21,099 nucleotides of DNA from a virus. The notes under the pieces are model-generated. The model had not been told where the DNA came from and did not search any database. It saw nothing but the letters and a program-made list of their open reading frames with translations. A program made the translations under genes and the position numbers. Shown piece by piece: positions 3,345 to 20,020 of the stretch. The stretch lies in IMG/VR virus record IMGVR_UViG_3300017783_000260, positions 1 through 21,099 of that record; one strand, given 5' to 3'. How positions within the stretch are numbered: position 1 is the stretch's first letter; each line of letters opens with the position of its first letter.

Positions 3345-3902
3345 TTACTTCCTCCGGATTTGTGCTGTATTGGAAATGAAAGCCCCGAACAGATCGAGAT
3401 CAATCGGCTTACCTTCTATCACGCGCTCCTTAACGAAGGCTTTGAGTGTAGAAGGGTGAACGTGGGTCTTGGTCTTCGGATCGAAGCCACGCTCTTGCAG
3501 CAGTCCGACAACGTCGCCCGCCACATTATCCTCGCCCTTACCAAAGGACACGGTAATGTCATTCTTGATGATGTCATCCAAGCCATTGGACCGAAGCCAA
3601 TCAAACGCGGCCTCTTTGTTTGCCGCAGGTATTGACGCAGCAACAATCATCTTACGCTCCACAACAGAGCCGTCCACATCCAGACGCTCGACGCCCATCT
3701 CATCCATTAAGGCGGGGATGTTCTCGACCGAAAGCTTGTGCTTCTCTTGCTTCATAGCTTTGATGTGGTCCTCCGCATCGCTGATCTCTTTCTCAACAGC
3801 GCGAAGTTTGCGAACCAGTTGACTTAACTGCTTTCCGGTTCCAGTATCGACAGACGCGAGCGCCTCCGATTCGTCGTATAAGTCTTCAAATATATCGCTC
3901 AT
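3345..3902 (-). CDS. Phage DNA-metabolism-associated coiled-coil protein
   Basis: Start chosen at ATG 3902 (MSDIFEDLYDE), with GAGGA about 9 bases upstream; the upstream part of the open frame runs through the divergent promoter region. The 185-residue product has a long charged heptad-rich helix at roughly residues 20-60 (LVRKLRAVEKEISDAEDHIKAM). A conserved-looking C-terminal part follows (HVHPSTLKAFVKERVIEGKPIDLDLFGAF), which I associate with a phage family commonly found beside recombination or SSB-like genes. No catalytic motif is visible. It is the first gene of the leftward replication operon, with one base between its stop and the SSB-like start, so the two proteins probably work together. 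Confidence 0.7.
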   Translation of the reverse strand: MSDIFEDLYDESEALASVDTGTGKQLSQLVRKLRAVEKEISDAEDHIKAMKQEKHKLSVENIPALMDEMGVERLDVDGSVVERKMIVAASIPAANKEAAFDWLRSNGLDDIIKNDITVSFGKGEDNVAGDVVGLLQERGFDPKTKTHVHPSTLKAFVKERVIEGKPIDLDLFGAFISNTAQIRRK

Positions 3903-6710: not shown

Positions 6711-6895
6711 ATCTGCTTGCCCGTTTCACGAAGGTTCTTAACATATGTATCCAGTTCTTCACGCGCAGCGAATAACTCACGCTGTACATTGGGCCTCGCA
6801 TCTCTGCGATACCGCTCCTCCTGTAACGCATCAACCTGACGCTTGAGCCAGTTCAACTGAGCCGCTTGGAATGTAGTTAAATCACTGTCACCCAT
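6707..6895 (-). CDS. Small coiled-coil protein
   Basis: A 62-residue, strongly charged helical protein (AQLNWLKRQVDALQEERYRRDARPNVQRELFAAREELDTYVKNLRE) with two predicted helices around an ARPN turn. It resembles the many small phage coiled-coil proteins but matches no family I know. It overlaps its upstream neighbour by 8 bases and the downstream HTH gene by 4 (ATGA), so it belongs to the operon. Confidence 0.6.
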   Translation of the reverse strand: MGDSDLTTFQAAQLNWLKRQVDALQEERYRRDARPNVQRELFAAREELDTYVKNLRETGKQI

Positions 6896-7133
6896 TGCCC
6901 AGTCCCTCCGGCCTAATCTTCGGTCGTACCACCCTCGATGGTTTATCGGTCACCTCACAAAACATCATGATGTTGTTGCCGTACAAACTATAAAGCTCAT
7001 CGTACAACGGCATCGCAATGTCCTGATCCATGACCGCCTGACATTGAGCCTCGTTCTCAAACCAAACCACCGTCTCCATCTCATGGTCCTGCACCTCATA
7101 ATGCAGGACCAACGCTGTAAAATATTCAATCAC
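6888..7133 (-). CDS. Hypothetical protein
   Basis: An 81-residue, acidic, aromatic-rich protein (MIEYFTALVLHYEVQDHEMETVVWFENEAQCQAVMDQD...). The layout of an N-terminal strand (ALVLHYEV), a strand ending VVWFEN and a helix EAQCQAVMDQD suggests a small alpha/beta fold. No signal peptide or membrane segment is present. The start overlaps the end of the 165-residue gene by 4 bases. Confidence 0.6.
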   Translation of the reverse strand: MIEYFTALVLHYEVQDHEMETVVWFENEAQCQAVMDQDIAMPLYDELYSLYGNNIMMFCEVTDKPSRVVRPKIRPEGLGNG

Positions 7134-9978: not shown

Positions 9979-10241
9979 TACAAAACACCTCCCGTTTTAA
10001 ATTGAATGTATTGCGTCACGTTTTCCTCAACCTCATTGTTAAACTCTGCAAACATACAATCCGCAACTGATGTGACCTGTGCCACAAAGACAGGCCAGTC
10101 TGGATCCCCCTCCCAACAAAAATCAGCAAGAGCAAGGGTTCTAAAATAGCCTTTTATACCCCCGTGATCTGGAACGGCTTCAACTATCTCAATCTGCGCC
10201 GAAGCACCGTCGATCATGTATTGCGCTGTGTGTTTAGGCAT
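9978..10241 (-). CDS. Hypothetical protein
   Basis: An 87-residue acidic protein ([52 protein letters not shown]...). Start 10241 is preferred over an upstream ATG at 10265 because GGAGACAGAG precedes it and it overlaps the methyltransferase stop by only 8 bases. No family recognised; the strands around AQIEIVEAV and FRTLAL suggest a small alpha/beta protein. Confidence 0.6.
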   Translation of the reverse strand: MPKHTAQYMIDGASAQIEIVEAVPDHGGIKGYFRTLALADFCWEGDPDWPVFVAQVTSVADCMFAEFNNEVEENVTQYIQFKTGGVL

Positions 10242-11244
10242 TCTCTGTCTCCATATAACTTTCAATTAATCCTTGCGCGACTTGCGCCGTGATCGCGTTG
10301 CCATAGGCGCGCAATCGTCCCACGCGGGAGGTAGCCCCATCAACCAACGGGAATGTGCCGGATCTAACTGGCCTCCACCTTCCATCCCTGCATCCAAGCC
10401 AGTCAACATCTCCCCAGAAGCCGTTAGTCTTATCGGACCCGCCATCTTCGACATCTGAGTTAGACTGCTCCCCGACATCTTGGCCGTGATCCCACTGCCG
10501 CCCCGCGTCCCGTCCGAGGCTGATGGTGTGGTCCACCCCGCCAACCTCGCCGCGTCCGCAGGATTCAACCCCGCGTTCATCCCGCGCTTGATCTTCGCGT
10601 CCGGATCCTCGCCCCGACCGTTGTTCGTCGCATTCGGCGTCGGCCATCCCACCAACTGAGCCGCCACATCCAACGTGTCCGTGCTGATCTTGCCGTTGCG
10701 TATCCGACCCCCCATGTAACCGCCCTTGTGATCCCGCGTCGTCGGCGTCGGCCACGAACCAAAGCCGTTGCCGGATGTGCGGGGCGCCGAAGCCCGCAGA
10801 GCACAAATCGAAAGCCCCGAAGGCGTAGTCCTCTCCTTCCATGTCAGCTTGTACAAGGTCGAGCCAACCAAGCCCGTCTTTGCTCGCAACCTGCTCTCCA
10901 AAGATCGTTGAAGGGCGACACTCCGCGATGAGGTGGTGCCAGTGAGGCCAGAGGTGCCGCTCGTCAAGCACCCCCTTTCTTGTGCCGCTCTGGCTGAAAG
11001 GTTGGCAGGGACATGAGCCCGTCCACACAGGCCTGTCATCTTCCCATCCCGCGGAGCGGAGCGCGTGGCTCCAGATTCCAATCCCCGCGAAGAAGTGACA
11101 CTGAGTAAATTCAAAAAGCTCTTCTGGTCTGACATCACTAATACTCCTCTCGTCAACCACACCATCAGCAATGTGGCCCGCCTTAATTAATTCCCGCAAC
11201 CATGACGCCGCATAAGGATCTATCTCGTTGTAATAAGCACTCAT
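10234..11244 (-). CDS. DNA (cytosine-5) methyltransferase
   Basis: The 336-residue enzyme contains the C5-methyltransferase motifs in order: I FAGIG (52-56, AdoMet site), IV PCQPFS (79-84, catalytic Cys80), VI as GEQV (116-119, usual form ENV), [14 protein letters not shown] (156-165), and IX/X as [17 protein letters not shown] near the end. It transfers methyl to cytosine in phage DNA, commonly to evade restriction. Residues about 170-300, where the target-recognition domain lies, are low-complexity and Gly/Asp-rich. That same DNA carries a second credible protein in another frame. The ATG overlaps the upstream stop (ATGA) with GGAG 9 bases before it. No cognate nuclease is nearby, so it looks like an orphan methylase. 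Confidence 0.9.
10266..11135 (-). CDS. Nested alternate-frame protein overlapping the methyltransferase
   Basis: In another frame of the same strand, ATG 11135 has GAGAGGAG 8 bases upstream and opens 289 codons. The protein has the sequence style of a family I recall beside or overlapping Dcm-like genes in many phages: [32 protein letters not shown]-like [22 protein letters not shown], then three GW-TP blocks (GSWPTP 126, VGWPTP 162, AGWTTP 199), [11 protein letters not shown] (237-247), and [21 protein letters not shown] at the end. It lies wholly inside the methyltransferase frame. Function is unknown; a partner or target-specificity subunit of the methylase is a guess. The alternative is a by-product of constrained codons, though the ribosome site argues against it. 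Confidence 0.6.
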
Positions 11245-11405
11245 GAAAACCGCTCCTTCAATCGCTTGGCGGCTTCCAACCTACTGTGAAGCTCCTCATG
11301 CTCCCAAGGCTCCGCATCACTGTCCAACCAAATATCCTCCAGATGCTCAATCATGTGATCAATTGCAACACGCAACACAGCAAACTCTAAATTTGGCAAA
11401 ACCAT
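11241..11405 (-). CDS. Small helical hypothetical protein
   Basis: Start 11405 shares its A with the upstream stop (TAATG); the open frame further up is a shadow. The 54-residue product ([54 protein letters not shown]) is acidic and almost entirely helical. The ATG of the methyltransferase overlaps its TGA. No family recognised. Confidence 0.6.
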   Translation of the reverse strand: MVLPNLEFAVLRVAIDHMIEHLEDIWLDSDAEPWEHEELHSRLEAAKRLKERFS

Positions 11406-11908
11406 TATGTCGCCTTCCAAATCTCTAACGCTTCCGCAAACGGCATGTCGTTCAAAATACGACGGCCATTGACCCACGAGCCATCAGTCACAGTAGGATA
11501 ATACTTGGATCCATACACATCATCCGAACCCTCCTTCTGAAACAACAAAGTGCTCTTCATCTTGCGCTTCAATTCACGACCCGTCAAAAAATCATTGACT
11601 TGATCACAACACCACGCCTCCAACGTCTGAGGCAAAGTATCATGAACCATAACACCATCCGCACCCTCATAACTGAAAGGTGAAGGAGGCAACGATTCAA
11701 AATACTCTTCAATAGATTTCATTACCGCACGGTAATCACGACTGTCACCCTTGAACTTAGGATGATCATAGTCACGGTCACAACCACCATGACCGTCGTT
11801 GCTCACAACAGCAACAGGCTTGCCATCCACATATAGATTGGCCTGATAACAATGAGTCTCCTCAGAAGCCCACGCAGTATGCTTAATAGATTTTAATTCA
11901 AGTTTCAT
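11405..11908 (-). CDS. Hypothetical phage protein, first gene of the leftward operon
   Basis: A 167-residue protein (MKLELKSIKHTAWASEETHCYQANLYVDGKPVAVVSNDGHGGCDRDYDH...). The N-terminal part looks like beta strands with a GHGG turn, the middle is helical (YRAVMKSIEEYFESL), and the end contains WVNGRRILNDMPFAEALEIWK. I do not recognise a domain. It has AAGGAAGGAAAG upstream of the ATG in the shared leader form and follows the best leftward promoter candidate of the window. Confidence 0.65.
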   Translation of the reverse strand: MKLELKSIKHTAWASEETHCYQANLYVDGKPVAVVSNDGHGGCDRDYDHPKFKGDSRDYRAVMKSIEEYFESLPPSPFSYEGADGVMVHDTLPQTLEAWCCDQVNDFLTGRELKRKMKSTLLFQKEGSDDVYGSKYYPTVTDGSWVNGRRILNDMPFAEALEIWKAT

Positions 11909-11945: not shown

Positions 11946-11974
11946 AAGCTATTGCACCTCGGTCCTCGGGTCAA
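11946..11974 (-). promoter_or_regulatory. Promoter candidate for the leftward 11.9-5.8 kb operon
   Basis: On the minus strand TTGACC (11969-11974, preceded by C) is separated by exactly 17 bases from TAGCTT (11946-11951). The spacer contains a CGAGGACCGAGG direct repeat. The start codon of the first gene lies about 38 bases downstream of the -10 box. Confidence 0.55.
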
Positions 11975-12030
11975 GGACTTTTTTGCAAGCAGCGGTTACG
12001 CGAGTTACACTATAGACACTTCCCCAGAGA

Positions 12031-12052
12031 TTTTTTGTTTTTTTTTTTTTTT
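12031..12052. repeat. Homopolymer T tract in the divergent control region
   Basis: Six T, a G, then fifteen T, followed by A/T-rich sequence to about 12065. It could be an easily melted element of an origin or intrinsic bend, or an unreliable homopolymer length. Confidence 0.6.
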
Positions 12053-12065
12053 CATTCAAATATAC

Positions 12066-12153
12066 CGTATCCACCGTATCCAAACGTATCCAAGCCTTAT
12101 TTATAGTGCTTAGACAGCCCAGATCTGGATACATCTGGTTACACTTGGATACA
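12066..12153. promoter_or_regulatory. Symmetric array of six phased octamers (iterons or operators)
   Basis: CGTATCCA occurs at 12066-12073, 12075-12082 and 12085-12092. Its inverted form TGGATACA occurs at 12126-12133 and 12146-12153, with TGGTTACA at 12136-12143. Steps are 9 or 10 bases, so sites in each triplet lie on one face of the helix, and the triplets face each other across 33 bases. CTATAT at 12173-12178 (an alphaproteobacterial-like -10) lies just right of it. The array sits between the leftward operon and the terminase gene. Confidence 0.75.
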
Positions 12154-12239
12154 CTTCGCTGGGAAAAAATCGCTATATAGGAAAGTTGAAAGAGCCAATC
12201 ACTTGGTATAGATTGTTGGATAACAACAACGGGGTGACC

Positions 12240-12812
12240 ATGGGAAAGCTTGAACAGAAGATCGAGGAGGAGCACGGTCGGACGCTGACCAACCGACAAC
12301 GCACCTTCGCAAGGCACATTGTCGAGGGCATATACTCAAACGCTGAAGCAGCCCGCAAGGCAGGTTATTCTGCCGAGGTTGCCAACACCAGTGCGTCCAA
12401 GCTTCTCAATGGGCGAGACTACCCGCACGTTTTAGAATATGTAACCGAGCTCCGAGAGGAGAGACAACGACGCTATGGCGTCTCCACTATTGGTCAGCTT
12501 CAACGGCTGTATCAACTGTCAGCGGGCGCCGAAGAGGCGGGCCAGTTTTCTGCGGCTATCAATGCCGAGAAGATCCGCTCTGCTTTGGGTGGCTTAACTG
12601 TCGATAGGCGGGAGCAGATCAACACAATAGATCAGATGTCACGGGATGAGATCACTGCCCGTTTGGCGGCGTTGCAAAAGCAATACCCCCAAGCTTTTGT
12701 GATAGAAGGAACAGCAAAGGATATCACACCAGATGAGCAAGGGGCCGGAGGCGAATTTTTGGAACTCATTGAGGACAAACCTTCCGAAGAATTGCTTCGC
12801 GACAAGGATTGA
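12240..12812 (+). CDS. terS: Terminase small subunit
   Basis: A 190-residue protein whose N-terminal part matches the Terminase_2 type: LTNRQRTFARHIVEGIYSNAEAARKAGYSAEVANTSASKLLNGRDYPHVLEYVTELREERQRRYGVS (about 15-82). Its helix-turn-helix, SNAEAARKAGYS, recognises the packaging site. The middle is a helical oligomerisation region and the acidic C-terminus (EFLELIEDKPSEELLRDKD) probably contacts the large subunit. ATG 12240 with GGGGTGA upstream is chosen over a TTG 54 bases earlier. It sits about 7.2 kb from the large subunit gene, which is unusual. The last 80 bases overlap the nuclease gene. Confidence 0.85.
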   Translation: MGKLEQKIEEEHGRTLTNRQRTFARHIVEGIYSNAEAARKAGYSAEVANTSASKLLNGRDYPHVLEYVTELREERQRRYGVSTIGQLQRLYQLSAGAEEAGQFSAAINAEKIRSALGGLTVDRREQINTIDQMSRDEITARLAALQKQYPQAFVIEGTAKDITPDEQGAGGEFLELIEDKPSEELLRDKD

Positions 12813-16358: not shown

Positions 16359-17339
16359 GTGGACATGGATAGTTTTGAGAGTGATTACCGTGAGGAGCGT
16401 CGGCAGGCGTTGCGTGATCAGTATTTGTCTGGGGATCGTGGTTTTTTGGGAACTCTTGCGCGGCATGGTGCGAATCGTTTAGAGGAGCGGTTTCGTGATT
16501 TATCTTCTGGTATAGGTTCTTTGTTTCGTGATCCTGAGTCTTCTATTCGTTCTGCGGATGCTGGTTTGGAGGATTTATACGGCAGGATTTCTGGCGGGGA
16601 CGGTACTTCTGCGATGATGTTAGCTAGTGGTTTGGCTGGCGGTGGTGCGGGATTTAATTTGTTGCGTGGTGGTGGTTATAGTCCGAATGTTGTGGGTTCT
16701 TCGGGTGGTAATATAGTTCGTGGTTATCATTCTACTCGTGCTGATTTTGACGAGTTTGATCCTGAGAAGGCTCTTCCTTCTGGAAATTTTGGTTTAGCTA
16801 CATATTTCAGTGAGGGTCGGAAGTATCCGGAGGGTTTAAATCCTGGGGCTCGTGTTATTGAGGCGGATTTAGACACGAGTAATTTTTTACGCGGGGATAA
16901 GCGGCTGCCTATTCCGGAGGAGCGTGTGGCTGGTACGTTATCTGTATTGAGTGGTTTAGAGGATGCGTCGGGTCGTGGTGTTAAGGTAGATTTTGACAAG
17001 GACAGTAACACTGCTCAGGTTCAGTATCACAGATATCGGCGTTCTGGAGAGGAAGGTCCTGTGTTAGAGACTAAGACTATAGATTTCAACAATTCTGCTC
17101 AGGTTTTGGATGATTTAAAGTCGTTGACCTGGGGTTTACGATTGGAGTCGATGTCCTCGGATCGGAGGAATTTATCTGATTTGTTGCGTGGTGCGGGATT
17201 TACTGGTGTAAAGGGTGGATCGAAGGATGATTTTCACATTGGGGTTTTAGACACTGGGGTTATTGATCGTAAGGCTTCTGGGGGGTTGGTTTCGATGCCT
17301 AATTTTCAGGGTGTAGGCAGCTTAGGAGGGGAGTTATAA
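16359..17339 (+). CDS. Putative ADP-ribosyltransferase (ART-PolyVal-like) virion protein
   Basis: A 326-residue protein starting at GTG 16359 (AGGG 9 bases upstream) or ATG 16365. After a charged helical N-terminus and a Gly-rich linker comes an ART-like block: RGYHSTRADFDEFDPEKA (121-138), FGLATYFSEG (144-153), VIEADLDTSNFLRGDKRLP (167-184), and DLLRGAGFTGVKGG...DDFHIGVLD (274-298). This follows the order in ART-PolyVal domains of phage polyvalent proteins (YHGT-DF-F, G-G-YF, ADP-FLDWDKPL, LL-AGI-GI, NyVvfD). His124 and Tyr149 would be active-site residues. Such domains are thought to modify host proteins after entry with the DNA. Enzyme activity is inferred; the acidic third residue is not secure. 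It is first in the late operon. Confidence 0.65.
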   Translation: MDMDSFESDYREERRQALRDQYLSGDRGFLGTLARHGANRLEERFRDLSSGIGSLFRDPESSIRSADAGLEDLYGRISGGDGTSAMMLASGLAGGGAGFNLLRGGGYSPNVVGSSGGNIVRGYHSTRADFDEFDPEKALPSGNFGLATYFSEGRKYPEGLNPGARVIEADLDTSNFLRGDKRLPIPEERVAGTLSVLSGLEDASGRGVKVDFDKDSNTAQVQYHRYRRSGEEGPVLETKTIDFNNSAQVLDDLKSLTWGLRLESMSSDRRNLSDLLRGAGFTGVKGGSKDDFHIGVLDTGVIDRKASGGLVSMPNFQGVGSLGGEL

Positions 17340-18829
17340 TGGTGGATCCTTATAAGGGAACTCGGTTCGAAGGGTTTACAGGCTTAGGCAATGATGGCTA
17401 CGGAAGCATGTCGCAAGGTCCGATGGACAACATTCTTGCAGATGGATTTTTTGTTAATGATCCAAGAAGACCGAGGCCCGGAATGCGTGGCAGTTCCGAT
17501 AGCGGCATTCCAGCTATTCCGAACCCGGGGTCGCTTCCTCCCGCAATGGCAGAAGCGGATATTCAACCCGCCTATGAAAGAGCAAGAGCGGCGGCGGCAG
17601 AAGCCCGTGCTAATGGGATGTTAAGTCAGGAACTTTTGCCCGGAGAAATGGGTTTTGAAGAGTTTCGTAGAATAAATCTTATGCCGGGTAGAGGGTTGGG
17701 CGTATCCACCGGCCCGATTAACACGGGTCTTGGCGCATCGGTTGGCAGGATTTTGGCGGACATAAACATGACTCCGGAAGAGAGAGCCCTTAGCCCGATA
17801 GTCGCTCAAAACCCCGGTGGCGGTCCTGACAGGGCTGATTTCAATGCGTTCAAGAGTACTCTTCGAGATCCGGGGGACATGGGTCGTTATATAGCTCCGG
17901 GCGAGGAGATGAGTTATGAGGATTTTGTAAAGTTTGGTCGTCCTGCTAATTTAGTCGCTGCGGAATCTGCGGGGTATGGCGGCGGGGCACTTTTATCGGA
18001 TGCTTTTGGAAATAAAGTTTCTCTCGGCTCTTTAGCGGGCGTTACACCTGAAGAAGCGTTGAAGGGCGGTGGGCTGCTGCCCAATTCTGGCGTTTCTGGA
18101 AACTTAAAAGATGCAACGGGCATGCCTGACACTCGCGGCCCGAACGTCCCCGGCAACAGACCGCCTACCCCGACGGAACCTATTGATCCATATGCTCGCC
18201 CTACTCCCGGGATGTTTGGTCCTACAACAGAGACTAATCCGATTGCTGGAATCAGCAATCAACCGGGCGGTGGTGGGGTGTCGCCTCCTGTTTCGGCTGG
18301 AACCGACATATCGCCACAGCCTGATATGACGCAACGTCCTATGCCGTTTAGCGGATTAGCGAGTTTAACTAAGCTGCCGATGTTTCAGGAGTTTGCAACG
18401 AAGTTGGAATCGGAGCATCCGGAGGCGAGTCAGTTATTCAGTCAGATGTTTATGGGGTCTTCTCAGCGTCCTATGCCGTACCAGAATCCTTTTATGGGAA
18501 TGGGAATGGGCTCGTTCCATCCTATGATGGGAGGTATGGGAATGGGCATGGGCGGTTACAATCCTATGATGGGCATGGGTGGCGGCTTTAATCCTATGAT
18601 GGGCGGCATGGGCATGGGTGGTTACAGTCCGTTTATGGGAATGAATCCTATGATGGGCATGGGCGGTGGTTTTAATCCTATGATGGGCATGGGCGGTGGT
18701 GGACTAGGTTCCTTTTATCCGCAGCCTTCGACATATGGTCCGCCGCAATCGATGCCGTCGATGGGTGGTTATCCGACGCCTCCGCAGAGCAGTCCGTTTG
18801 GTGGTGCGATGCGCGGTTATTATGCTTAG
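17339..18829 (+). CDS. Pro/Gly-rich protein with Met-Gly repeat tail
   Basis: A 496-residue protein whose ATG shares its A with the upstream TAA (TAATG). Residues 1-370 are low-complexity, Pro/Gly/Asn-rich with short motifs such as LLPGEMGFEEFRR and ITPEEALKGG-like TPEEALKGG. The end consists of repeated NPMMGMGGG(F/Y) units before PPQSSPFGGAMRGYYA. There is no recognised enzyme domain. Location before the terminase and composition suggest a virion or head-associated protein. The stop is TAG, again showing TAG is a normal stop here. Confidence 0.65.
   Translation: MVDPYKGTRFEGFTGLGNDGYGSMSQGPMDNILADGFFVNDPRRPRPGMRGSSDSGIPAIPNPGSLPPAMAEADIQPAYERARAAAAEARANGMLSQELLPGEMGFEEFRRINLMPGRGLGVSTGPINTGLGASVGRILADINMTPEERALSPIVAQNPGGGPDRADFNAFKSTLRDPGDMGRYIAPGEEMSYEDFVKFGRPANLVAAESAGYGGGALLSDAFGNKVSLGSLAGVTPEEALKGGGLLPNSGVSGNLKDATGMPDTRGPNVPGNRPPTPTEPIDPYARPTPGMFGPTTETNPIAGISNQPGGGGVSPPVSAGTDISPQPDMTQRPMPFSGLASLTKLPMFQEFATKLESEHPEASQLFSQMFMGSSQRPMPYQNPFMGMGMGSFHPMMGGMGMGMGGYNPMMGMGGGFNPMMGGMGMGGYSPFMGMNPMMGMGGGFNPMMGMGGGGLGSFYPQPSTYGPPQSMPSMGGYPTPPQSSPFGGAMRGYYA
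18481..18708 (+). repeat. In-frame tandem repeats encoding Met/Gly-rich NPMMGMGGG units
   Basis: Repeats of AATCCTATGATGGGCATGGG and variants (TTTATGGGAATGGG, GGCGGTTACAATCC) recur through the 3' third of the gene. They give about seven copies of PMMG or PFMG in the protein. Copy number is likely to vary between isolates and assemblies. Confidence 0.7.
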
Positions 18830-18847
18830 AGTTGAAGGAGAACTCGA

Positions 18848-20020
18848 ATGAAGAAGTTTCAAGGTGGTGGCGGAGTTCCCCGTCAGACGACGATTGGTGG
18901 TCAGCGTCATGATTTGGCGTATATAAACCCGTTTGAGGCGGATTTATTGCGGGCTTATGGTGGGAGTGGTGAGCCGGGTCCGGGCGGAGTTCCTGCGTAT
19001 CGTGTTTATAACAGTAGTTATAACCCGAGCACGATTTCTCGGGATCGAAGCCAAAGCACTGCATCAAGGCAACAAGCGGCAATGGATCGAGAGATTCAAC
19101 GTGATGATAGACCTCGTCCTGCGGAGGAAACGACAGCACAGGCTAGGGCTCGTATGGATAAGGGCTCTAATCAGGGTCCAACTCCCGCGCAGGCGGCGGC
19201 GGCTCAAGCTGCGGCGGCGGCGTCGGCACGAGCGGCGGCTGCTGCGCGAGGACAAGCAGGAAGGGATGCTGCTGCTGCTGCTGCGAAGAAAATTGGAGCT
19301 CCCATGACCTCGACGGAAAGGCAGCGAGAAATTGCGGCACGAGTTCCGACGTATAACGTGGGCCCAGCGAGTATGCGGGGACTAACGAGTAGACAGGGGC
19401 CGTCGAGTGGCGGTATTATGGACACTCTTAGGAATATTCCGATTATTGGTAGTGTTATTGGTAACTATCAAATGGGGATTACCGCTGGGGGTCCGTTAAC
19501 ATCTTTAGAAGAACAGTATAGAAACCTTGTGGACTCTGGAAAATATACGAAAGAAGAGATTGAAGAATACATGGCGGCAACGCGACGAGGTATAGCTCGT
19601 CAGGAGGAAGAGATGTTTGGTGGTGGCGCTCCCCCCGCTGGGGATGACTCGATGCCGTACACGTTGCCTGCTGCTGCGGATCCTTGTCCGGAGGGGTATC
19701 GGATGGATACGGTGACGAATGCGTGTGTTCCAGCGGATGATGTTACTGGCGGAACTCCTCCTGTGGTTCCGGGGTTTCCGGATTTAACACGCCCTGAACC
19801 GGTTGAGGTTCCGACGGTTGTTGGCTCTCCGGACTATACGCAGATGCCTGTTACGGTTGGGGTTCCGCCGTTGTTTCCGGGGGTTGTGCCGATGCCTGAA
19901 ATTACAGGCCCTGTGAATCGAGGATTTATGCCAAGTGAATACGGGGGCCTTTTGGGTATCGCAGGTCCTGATGCTAGATTCACTACTGGTATGCCAACGG
20001 ACATAGATCCGTTTAGGTAA
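18848..20020 (+). CDS. Ala/Gly/Pro-rich structural-type protein with CPEGY motif
   Basis: A 390-residue protein with GAAGGAG 8 bases before the ATG. The N-terminus is Gly/Arg/Gln-rich; residues about 115-145 are an Ala-rich run. A central helical region follows (RNIPIIGSVIGNYQMGI, LEEQYRNLVDSGKYTKEEIEEYMAATRRGIARQEEEMFGGG), then DPCPEGYRMDTVTNACVPAD, a motif I associate with marine-phage virion-type proteins. The C-terminal part is Pro/Val-rich. A 17-residue hydrophobic stretch could touch membrane. Role unknown, probably virion-associated. Its stop overlaps the terminase start (TAATG). Confidence 0.65.
   Translation: MKKFQGGGGVPRQTTIGGQRHDLAYINPFEADLLRAYGGSGEPGPGGVPAYRVYNSSYNPSTISRDRSQSTASRQQAAMDREIQRDDRPRPAEETTAQARARMDKGSNQGPTPAQAAAAQAAAAASARAAAAARGQAGRDAAAAAAKKIGAPMTSTERQREIAARVPTYNVGPASMRGLTSRQGPSSGGIMDTLRNIPIIGSVIGNYQMGITAGGPLTSLEEQYRNLVDSGKYTKEEIEEYMAATRRGIARQEEEMFGGGAPPAGDDSMPYTLPAAADPCPEGYRMDTVTNACVPADDVTGGTPPVVPGFPDLTRPEPVEVPTVVGSPDYTQMPVTVGVPPLFPGVVPMPEITGPVNRGFMPSEYGGLLGIAGPDARFTTGMPTDIDPFR

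Follow-up and report, generated by a model that had tools for sequence, protein, structure and literature searches.

A convergent iteron array in an uncultured marine phage as a probable replication origin read by the wing of a helicase-less primase

The window analysed here (the whole stretch of 21,099 bases, IMG/VR virus record IMGVR_UViG_3300017783_000260) carries an array of six octamers between two divergent transcription units, headed by a gene of family phrog_17767 on the left and by the gene of the terminase small subunit (TerS) on the right (Table 1). After correction for strand, all six copies represent a single word, TGG(A/T)TAC(A/G), set out as two convergent triplets with the helical phasing of multiple short direct repeats that is known from iteron origins. 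In the six-base form used below to compare relatives (G-NNN-AC), the word of the window reads G-GAT-AC (GGATAC). The AT-rich core between the two arms and the adjoining T tract recur in relatives, as would befit an unwinding element, for which the core is our candidate. The observed cluster of five convergent copies of a 6-mer was never equalled when the window was resampled 150 times under a first-order Markov model (145 of the resamples had no cluster of at least four copies).

Table 1. Features of the array locus and of the primase gene in the window
Feature	Position	Strand	Remarks
AEP primase (AEP-TOTE, phrog_21866), 508 aa	971–2497	−	proposed origin-binding initiator
C-terminal winged-helix domain of the primase, residues 426–488	1034–1222	−	AlphaFold2 model
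Codon of primase residue 481 (Thr in the window)	1055–1057	−	tracks word base 4
Codon of primase residue 471 (His in the window)	1085–1087	−	tracks word base 2
Codon of primase residue 469 (Ile in the window)	1091–1093	−	best column for word base 3, partial
Left neighbour gene, phrog_17767	11405–11908	−	missing from several relatives that keep the array
Outlying word-like copy GAGTTACA	12002–12015	+	overlaps CACTATAG; TATAGT on the minus strand
T6GT15 tract	12031–12052	+	adjoins the left arm; found in most relatives
Left arm, three iteron copies	12066–12092	−	CGTATCCA on +, TGGATACG on −; copies at 12066–12073, 12075–12082 and 12085–12092 (steps of 9, then 10 bp)
AT-rich core between the arms	12093–12125		contains CCTTATTTATA at 12095–12105; recurs in many relatives with differing words
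Right arm, three iteron copies	12126–12153	+	TGGATACA at 12126–12133, TGGTTACA at 12136–12143, TGGATACA at 12146–12153 (steps of exactly 10 bp)
CTATATAGG, conserved	12173–12181	+	candidate −10 of a rightward (TerS) promoter
TerS, right neighbour	12240–12812	+	99% identical in relative G001

Among 80 TerS-bearing relatives, most retain the architecture, the T tract and the AT-rich core (often in the form CTTATTTAT). Between persisting flanks, the word copies change jointly (to GATGAC, GAGGAC, GAGTAC, GAGAAC, GATTAC or GTTTAC), within a nearly universal G-NNN-AC frame. Automatic analysis resolved 69 of 87 distinct upstream regions, with GGATAC, GATTAC, GTTTAC (GTAAAC when facing in reverse), GAGGAC, GAGTAC, GATGAC and GAGAAC among the words. 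The clearest case is the 56.9-kb relative G001, in which all six copies read GATGAC instead of the word of the window, although the two sequences match for ∼85 bp on the right-hand side of the array and for 150 bp on its left-hand side, bar a few single differences. An earlier note on this DNA, whose copies, coordinates, spacings and T6GT15 tract were all confirmed in the sequence, had proposed a search for conserved iterons in relatives and had named unconserved octamers, along with a lack of replication or binding signal, as grounds for dismissing the site. The layout is indeed kept in dozens of relatives and the octamer letters are not; the octamer criterion would mislead, as the letters differ and yet the copies change in concert. 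It is this concerted change that we regard as the strongest evidence of function. A DNA similarity search of the intergenic region against cultured phages gave no match. A scan of bacterial genomes, bearing on the host, gave only four hits, all of them in distant metagenome-assembled genomes. Two of the TerS-upstream arrays are themselves irregular (most of the left arm is missing in L002, and in L019 the flank switches within the array), which suggests recombination (or misassembly) at the origin.

The word co-varies with a short segment of the primase. The primases of the window and G001 differ by 12 amino-acid changes, of which seven (at 469, 471, 472, 473, 475, 478 and 481) fall within the 13 residues 469–481 (P ∼4e-7, corrected for the choice of stretch). 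At the codon level, seven nonsynonymous changes and one synonymous change lie inside this segment, as opposed to 5 and 41, respectively, outside it (Fisher 3e-5). Two relatives that share the word of the window and have diverged to 87% (G011 and G013) carry its H471, T473, K475 and T481, whereas the phages with other words (G001, G002 and G003) have N, V/M, A/R and N/K at the same positions. Only 9 of 2,410 comparable residues of the window proteins follow such a word-sharing pattern.

These associations were quantified over 24 distinct primase/array pairs, with 1,689 variable columns from 14 shared proteins as a control. Residue 471 explains all of the entropy of base 2, residue 481 explains 87% of that of base 4, and residue 469 explains 80% of that of base 3, each being the top column among the 1,689 for its base. 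The correspondence between residue 471 and base 2 (N with A, H with G, A or S with T) is exceptionless in the MAFFT alignment; at residue 481, T or S goes with T at base 4, N with G, and K with G or A; at residue 469, K or R occurs only with G at base 3. Residue 473, an early candidate determinant, was dropped since it tracked no base across the pairs. On a tree built from primase residues 1–425 (thus excluding the winged helix), base 2 and the class of residue 471 change eight times each and agree in every one of the 8 independent pairs (p=0.008); base 4 and residue 481 agree in 4 of 4. Near-identical primases from phages with different words point to the same domain, the winged helix holding 12 of the 14 differences between L158 and L249 and 11 of the 16 between L155 and L257. 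One of these phages, L249, has the word GAGTCA upstream of TerS paired with a primase that uniquely bears E at residue 470, which possibly extends the code to base 5.

A forecast made in advance, that wings ending in RTN would go with G or A at base 4, was borne out by L315 (RTN, GAGGAC) and its sister L314 (RTT, GAGTAC), which are one wing residue and one word base apart; a pair found later (L401) also agrees with the code. For further wings, the code would predict GATTAC for VQNIVKAKGRRTT, GTTGAC for VQAIHKPDGKRTN, GAGGAC for KVNIHKSDGKRTN and GATGAC for VQNIHKSDGKRTN. A cognate initiator would be expected to reside on the same replicon and to have matching specificity, and the residue–base co-variation points to the primase as such a protein. 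Overall, these sequence comparisons support recognition of the word by the primase wing.

The primase contains a catalytic domain of the archaeo-eukaryotic primase (AEP) type (PF22548, E 5.8e-16). Its AlphaFold2 model (mean predicted local distance difference test score 79 for the whole protein and 85 for the domain) shows the AEP domain followed by a C-terminal winged helix, in which strands 466–473 and 479–488 form the hairpin wing. In the modelled wing, 469 and 471 are alternating residues of one strand and 481 lies on the facing strand, so the three plausibly share one face. The AEP part matches the fold of CAPP Prim-Pol; for the winged helix, other phage primases were matched in a viral library. 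No helicase was detected in the primase, either by Pfam or by sequence comparison with PDB helicases. It thus combines an AEP domain and a C-terminal helix-turn-helix (HTH) without a helicase domain, as in ColE2-like initiators, and lacks the hexameric helicase of a SaPI Rep–ori system. As AEP-TOTE alone was matched, with no sequence kinship to ColE2, RepE or RepS, we describe the primase as working like helicase-less ColE2-like initiators and do not class it as a member. Its C terminus (ISNDIPF) resembles that of a phrog_2402 protein encoded at 3346–2552 (KDDEIPF), both being acidic tails with IPF like those of single-stranded-DNA-binding proteins; the shared ending suggests that the two proteins may dock onto the same partner.

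The earlier note had also seen the GC skew flip at the array and had proposed a cumulative plot. The sign change was confirmed, and the global minimum of the cumulative skew lies at the array in G001 (minimum at 34163, array at 34171–34258), in G003 and in the rotated G002. Phage skew usually follows transcription, and the genes of 25 contigs were therefore split by strand. At fourfold sites, 48 of 50 plus-strand genes on the left have negative skew and 28 of 30 minus-strand genes on the right have positive skew. The genes are homologous across contigs and thus provide fewer independent observations than counted, so that the signal is strong as to sign but lower in effective number. The skew follows the side of the array and not the strand of the gene, which is a replication-type signature, albeit an indirect one as to where copying starts.

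In cultured phages of Acinetobacter, Klebsiella, Salmonella and Providencia, arrays are located directly upstream of the primase gene. These phages (Kokobel2, PMBT28, VLCpiS6a, PSA28 and ten Acinetobacter phages, nine of which were read) have primases ∼29–30% identical to that of the window, and their array words include TGGAAC, GAGCAACC, GAG(A/T/G)AACC and GGGTAAC. In the marine phages, several kb separate the array from the primase gene (∼10 kb in the window). A repeat scan of DSL-LC04, HTVC023P, HTVC027P, 023Pt_psg01 and the Manatee Spring podovirus found no convincing array; DSL-LC04, a distant cultured relative, has a long intergenic run (L201:29822–30120) with imperfect GGT(G/T)(C/A)GG-like repeats and without a recognisable convergent array.

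The earlier note had offered the array as either an origin or an operator. The first of these roles is favoured by the primase co-variation, the AT-rich core, the skew and the arrays of cultured phages, and an additional operator role is possible. We consider it highly probable that the array is a bidirectional phage replication origin, with iterons recognised by the wing of a primase that acts as initiator and has no helicase. The hairpin wing of the winged helix would make the contact between the primase and the six words; steps of ∼10 bp would line up the bound domains along the same face of the double helix, and the two convergent triplets would set primase on either side of the AT-rich core. 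On the model of iteron origins and of helicase-less AEP initiators (ColE2 Rep, for one), we infer that the core would then open and that priming would launch replication in both directions. Specificity would reside in residues 471 (for base 2) and 481 (for base 4), with a contribution of residue 469 to base 3, so that joint changes in the six copies and in a few residues of the wing could give a phage a new origin address.

Several observations weigh against this interpretation. The association of residue 469 with base 3 has exceptions (L155, G002 and G003), the residue placed at 471 in L397 varies with the alignment program (S with MAFFT, R with tblastn), and the words TAGTAC (L162/G005) and GAGTCA fall outside the G-NNN-AC frame. 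The base-4 forecast was aimed at L274 and L292, where arrays were not found, and came true in a sister, L315. The winged-helix model has no significant match in PDB. The skew minimum is 0.4 to 4.4 kb off the array in G004, G005 and G010 (among the shorter contigs). Finally, the primase region of the window and G001 may have been acquired by recombination, although the code holds over eight independent switches as well.

The array might instead serve mainly as an operator, through which the primase (alone or with another factor) regulates the divergent units and its own gene, replication starting elsewhere. Its position between these units, beside the promoter-like CACTATAG and CTATATAGG, would suit such a role, as would the place that it takes in cultured relatives, in front of the primase gene, where an autoregulatory operator would be expected. 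The outlying word-like copy overlaps CACTATAG, in which TATAGT on the minus strand is a possible leftward −10, just as CTATATAGG may be that of the TerS promoter. On the other hand, genes on the minority strand change skew at the array, the outlying copy GAGTTACA is unswapped in G001 and hence not strictly coupled to the word, and the array of marine phages is far from the primase gene. On balance, we regard a mainly regulatory array as unlikely. An operator array read by a phage repressor is not supported either, in that none of the candidate regulators within the window co-varies with the word. The words might also be single-stranded start sites of the primase, comparable to the 8-base site of NrS-1 PrimPol, other factors opening the origin. 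The reader of the array is itself a primase; however, recognition in NrS-1 is assigned to the helix-bundle domain and not to a C-terminal winged helix (PMC8718748), and 10-bp phasing with convergent triplets would better suit binding to duplex DNA, which leaves this explanation a small share of the probability.

Reading of the array by another DNA-binding protein of the phage, the primase link being due to hitch-hiking, appears very improbable. The window does encode several small proteins of this kind, and the gene at 6888–7133 has three residues that follow the word pattern. This gene is, however, absent from relatives that keep the array, and the named candidates were rejected: in spite of their different words, the window and G001 have AlpA-like and ribbon-helix-helix proteins that are 100% identical and winged HTH and TerS proteins that are 99% identical (one residue), while HTH_28 has a conserved helix-turn-helix and is missing in phages that share the word. 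None of the alignment columns of these proteins comes near primase residues 471 and 481. The near-identity of TerS, which excludes it as the reader, speaks equally against the array as a packaging (pac/cos) site for the adjoining terminase small subunit, the reading to which we give the least credence. The array does lie immediately upstream of the TerS gene in marine phages, but in the cultured relatives it adjoins the primase gene and not a terminase gene. A DnaA-box origin would have conserved TTATCCACA boxes, and here the word swaps to unrelated sequences in close relatives.

The proposed origin has partial counterparts in known systems. Lambdoid phages likewise pair type-specific O initiators with type-specific iterons, but these iterons are located within the O gene, and O is not known to be a primase. 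Geminiviruses differ from one another in their iterons, and the iteron sequence correlates with amino-acid variation in one defined part of Rep, the iteron-related domain (PMC10653810), a correlation like the one described here. That Rep, however, acts through its N-terminal DNA-binding region in rolling-circle replication of single-stranded DNA plant viruses, as opposed to the C-terminal wing of an AEP primase in a double-stranded DNA tailed phage. Similar in organisation are the ColE2/ColE3-type Rep, RepE/RepS and PrimHYQ proteins, helicase-less origin-binding initiators with an AEP domain and a C-terminal HTH (PMC5862659, PMC5304414). ColE2 Rep is reported to unwind DNA without an NTPase domain, and in the PrimQH family the C-terminal winged helix of the AEP protein has been suggested to recognise the origin (PMC5862659). 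ColE2-type origins are among the smallest reported (PMC5304414) and lack 3+3 iteron arrays, and the present primase differs from their initiators in belonging to AEP-TOTE; for these systems, the open-licence literature examined does not report a phased array whose word copies change jointly. SaPI Rep, a mobile-element initiator, also reads multiple short iterons with its C-terminal domain (PMC7581432), and a Foldseek match to SaPIbov1 Rep was weak (E 0.25). SaPI Rep is, however, a helicase; its origin lies downstream of the Rep gene, and the AEP primase is a distinct protein, whereas here the primase bears the winged helix. The phage AEP enzyme NrS-1 PrimPol also recognises a specific sequence, of 8 bases, but it has a fused helicase domain and acts on a single-stranded template, and no array or co-variation is described for it (PMC8718748). 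The open-licence literature searched contained no report of this array, of such an array/primase pairing or of a residue–base code in a phage primase.

A few other features deserve mention. The look of CACTATAG is SP6-like, as of a promoter for a single-subunit RNA polymerase; a search of 15 related contigs for RNA_pol (PF00940) gave no match, nor did the control match anything. At 11962–11985, the plus strand has a hairpin (GTCCTCGGGTCAAGGAC) followed by T6, which is terminator-like, yet no plus-strand gene leads there; a related motif, CTCGGTCC(T/A)CGGGTCAAG, recurs among distant relatives. The DNA methyltransferases (10234–11244 in the window) of the window and G001 differ mainly in residues 178–262, so that the presumed target-recognition region was swapped too. 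Three genes at 16359–20020, one of which encodes a Gly/Met-rich repetitive protein, are essentially absent from G001. Near a contig end, L192:188–620 has 15-bp tandem repeats with AGCCAA, unrelated to the GNNNAC words.

To our knowledge, few origins of tailed phages have been located, and hardly any from uncultured marine phages. If the proposed reading is true, an origin, its reader and the rule that links them would be legible from sequence, with three bases of the word set against three residues in the wing of a primase; how AEP primases recognise origins would become directly testable, and origins would be predictable in related contigs. One would then also ask why the replication address changes so frequently among phages. 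We tentatively suggest, while considering the wider claim somewhat doubtful, that a widespread phage family sets its origin address by a readable primase-wing code and swaps it often enough to split near-identical phages, which would imply selection for orthogonal origins. Such origins may, for example, escape cross-talk from co-infecting relatives, initiator-stealing satellites or host factors, and would define replication specificity groups analogous to immunity groups.
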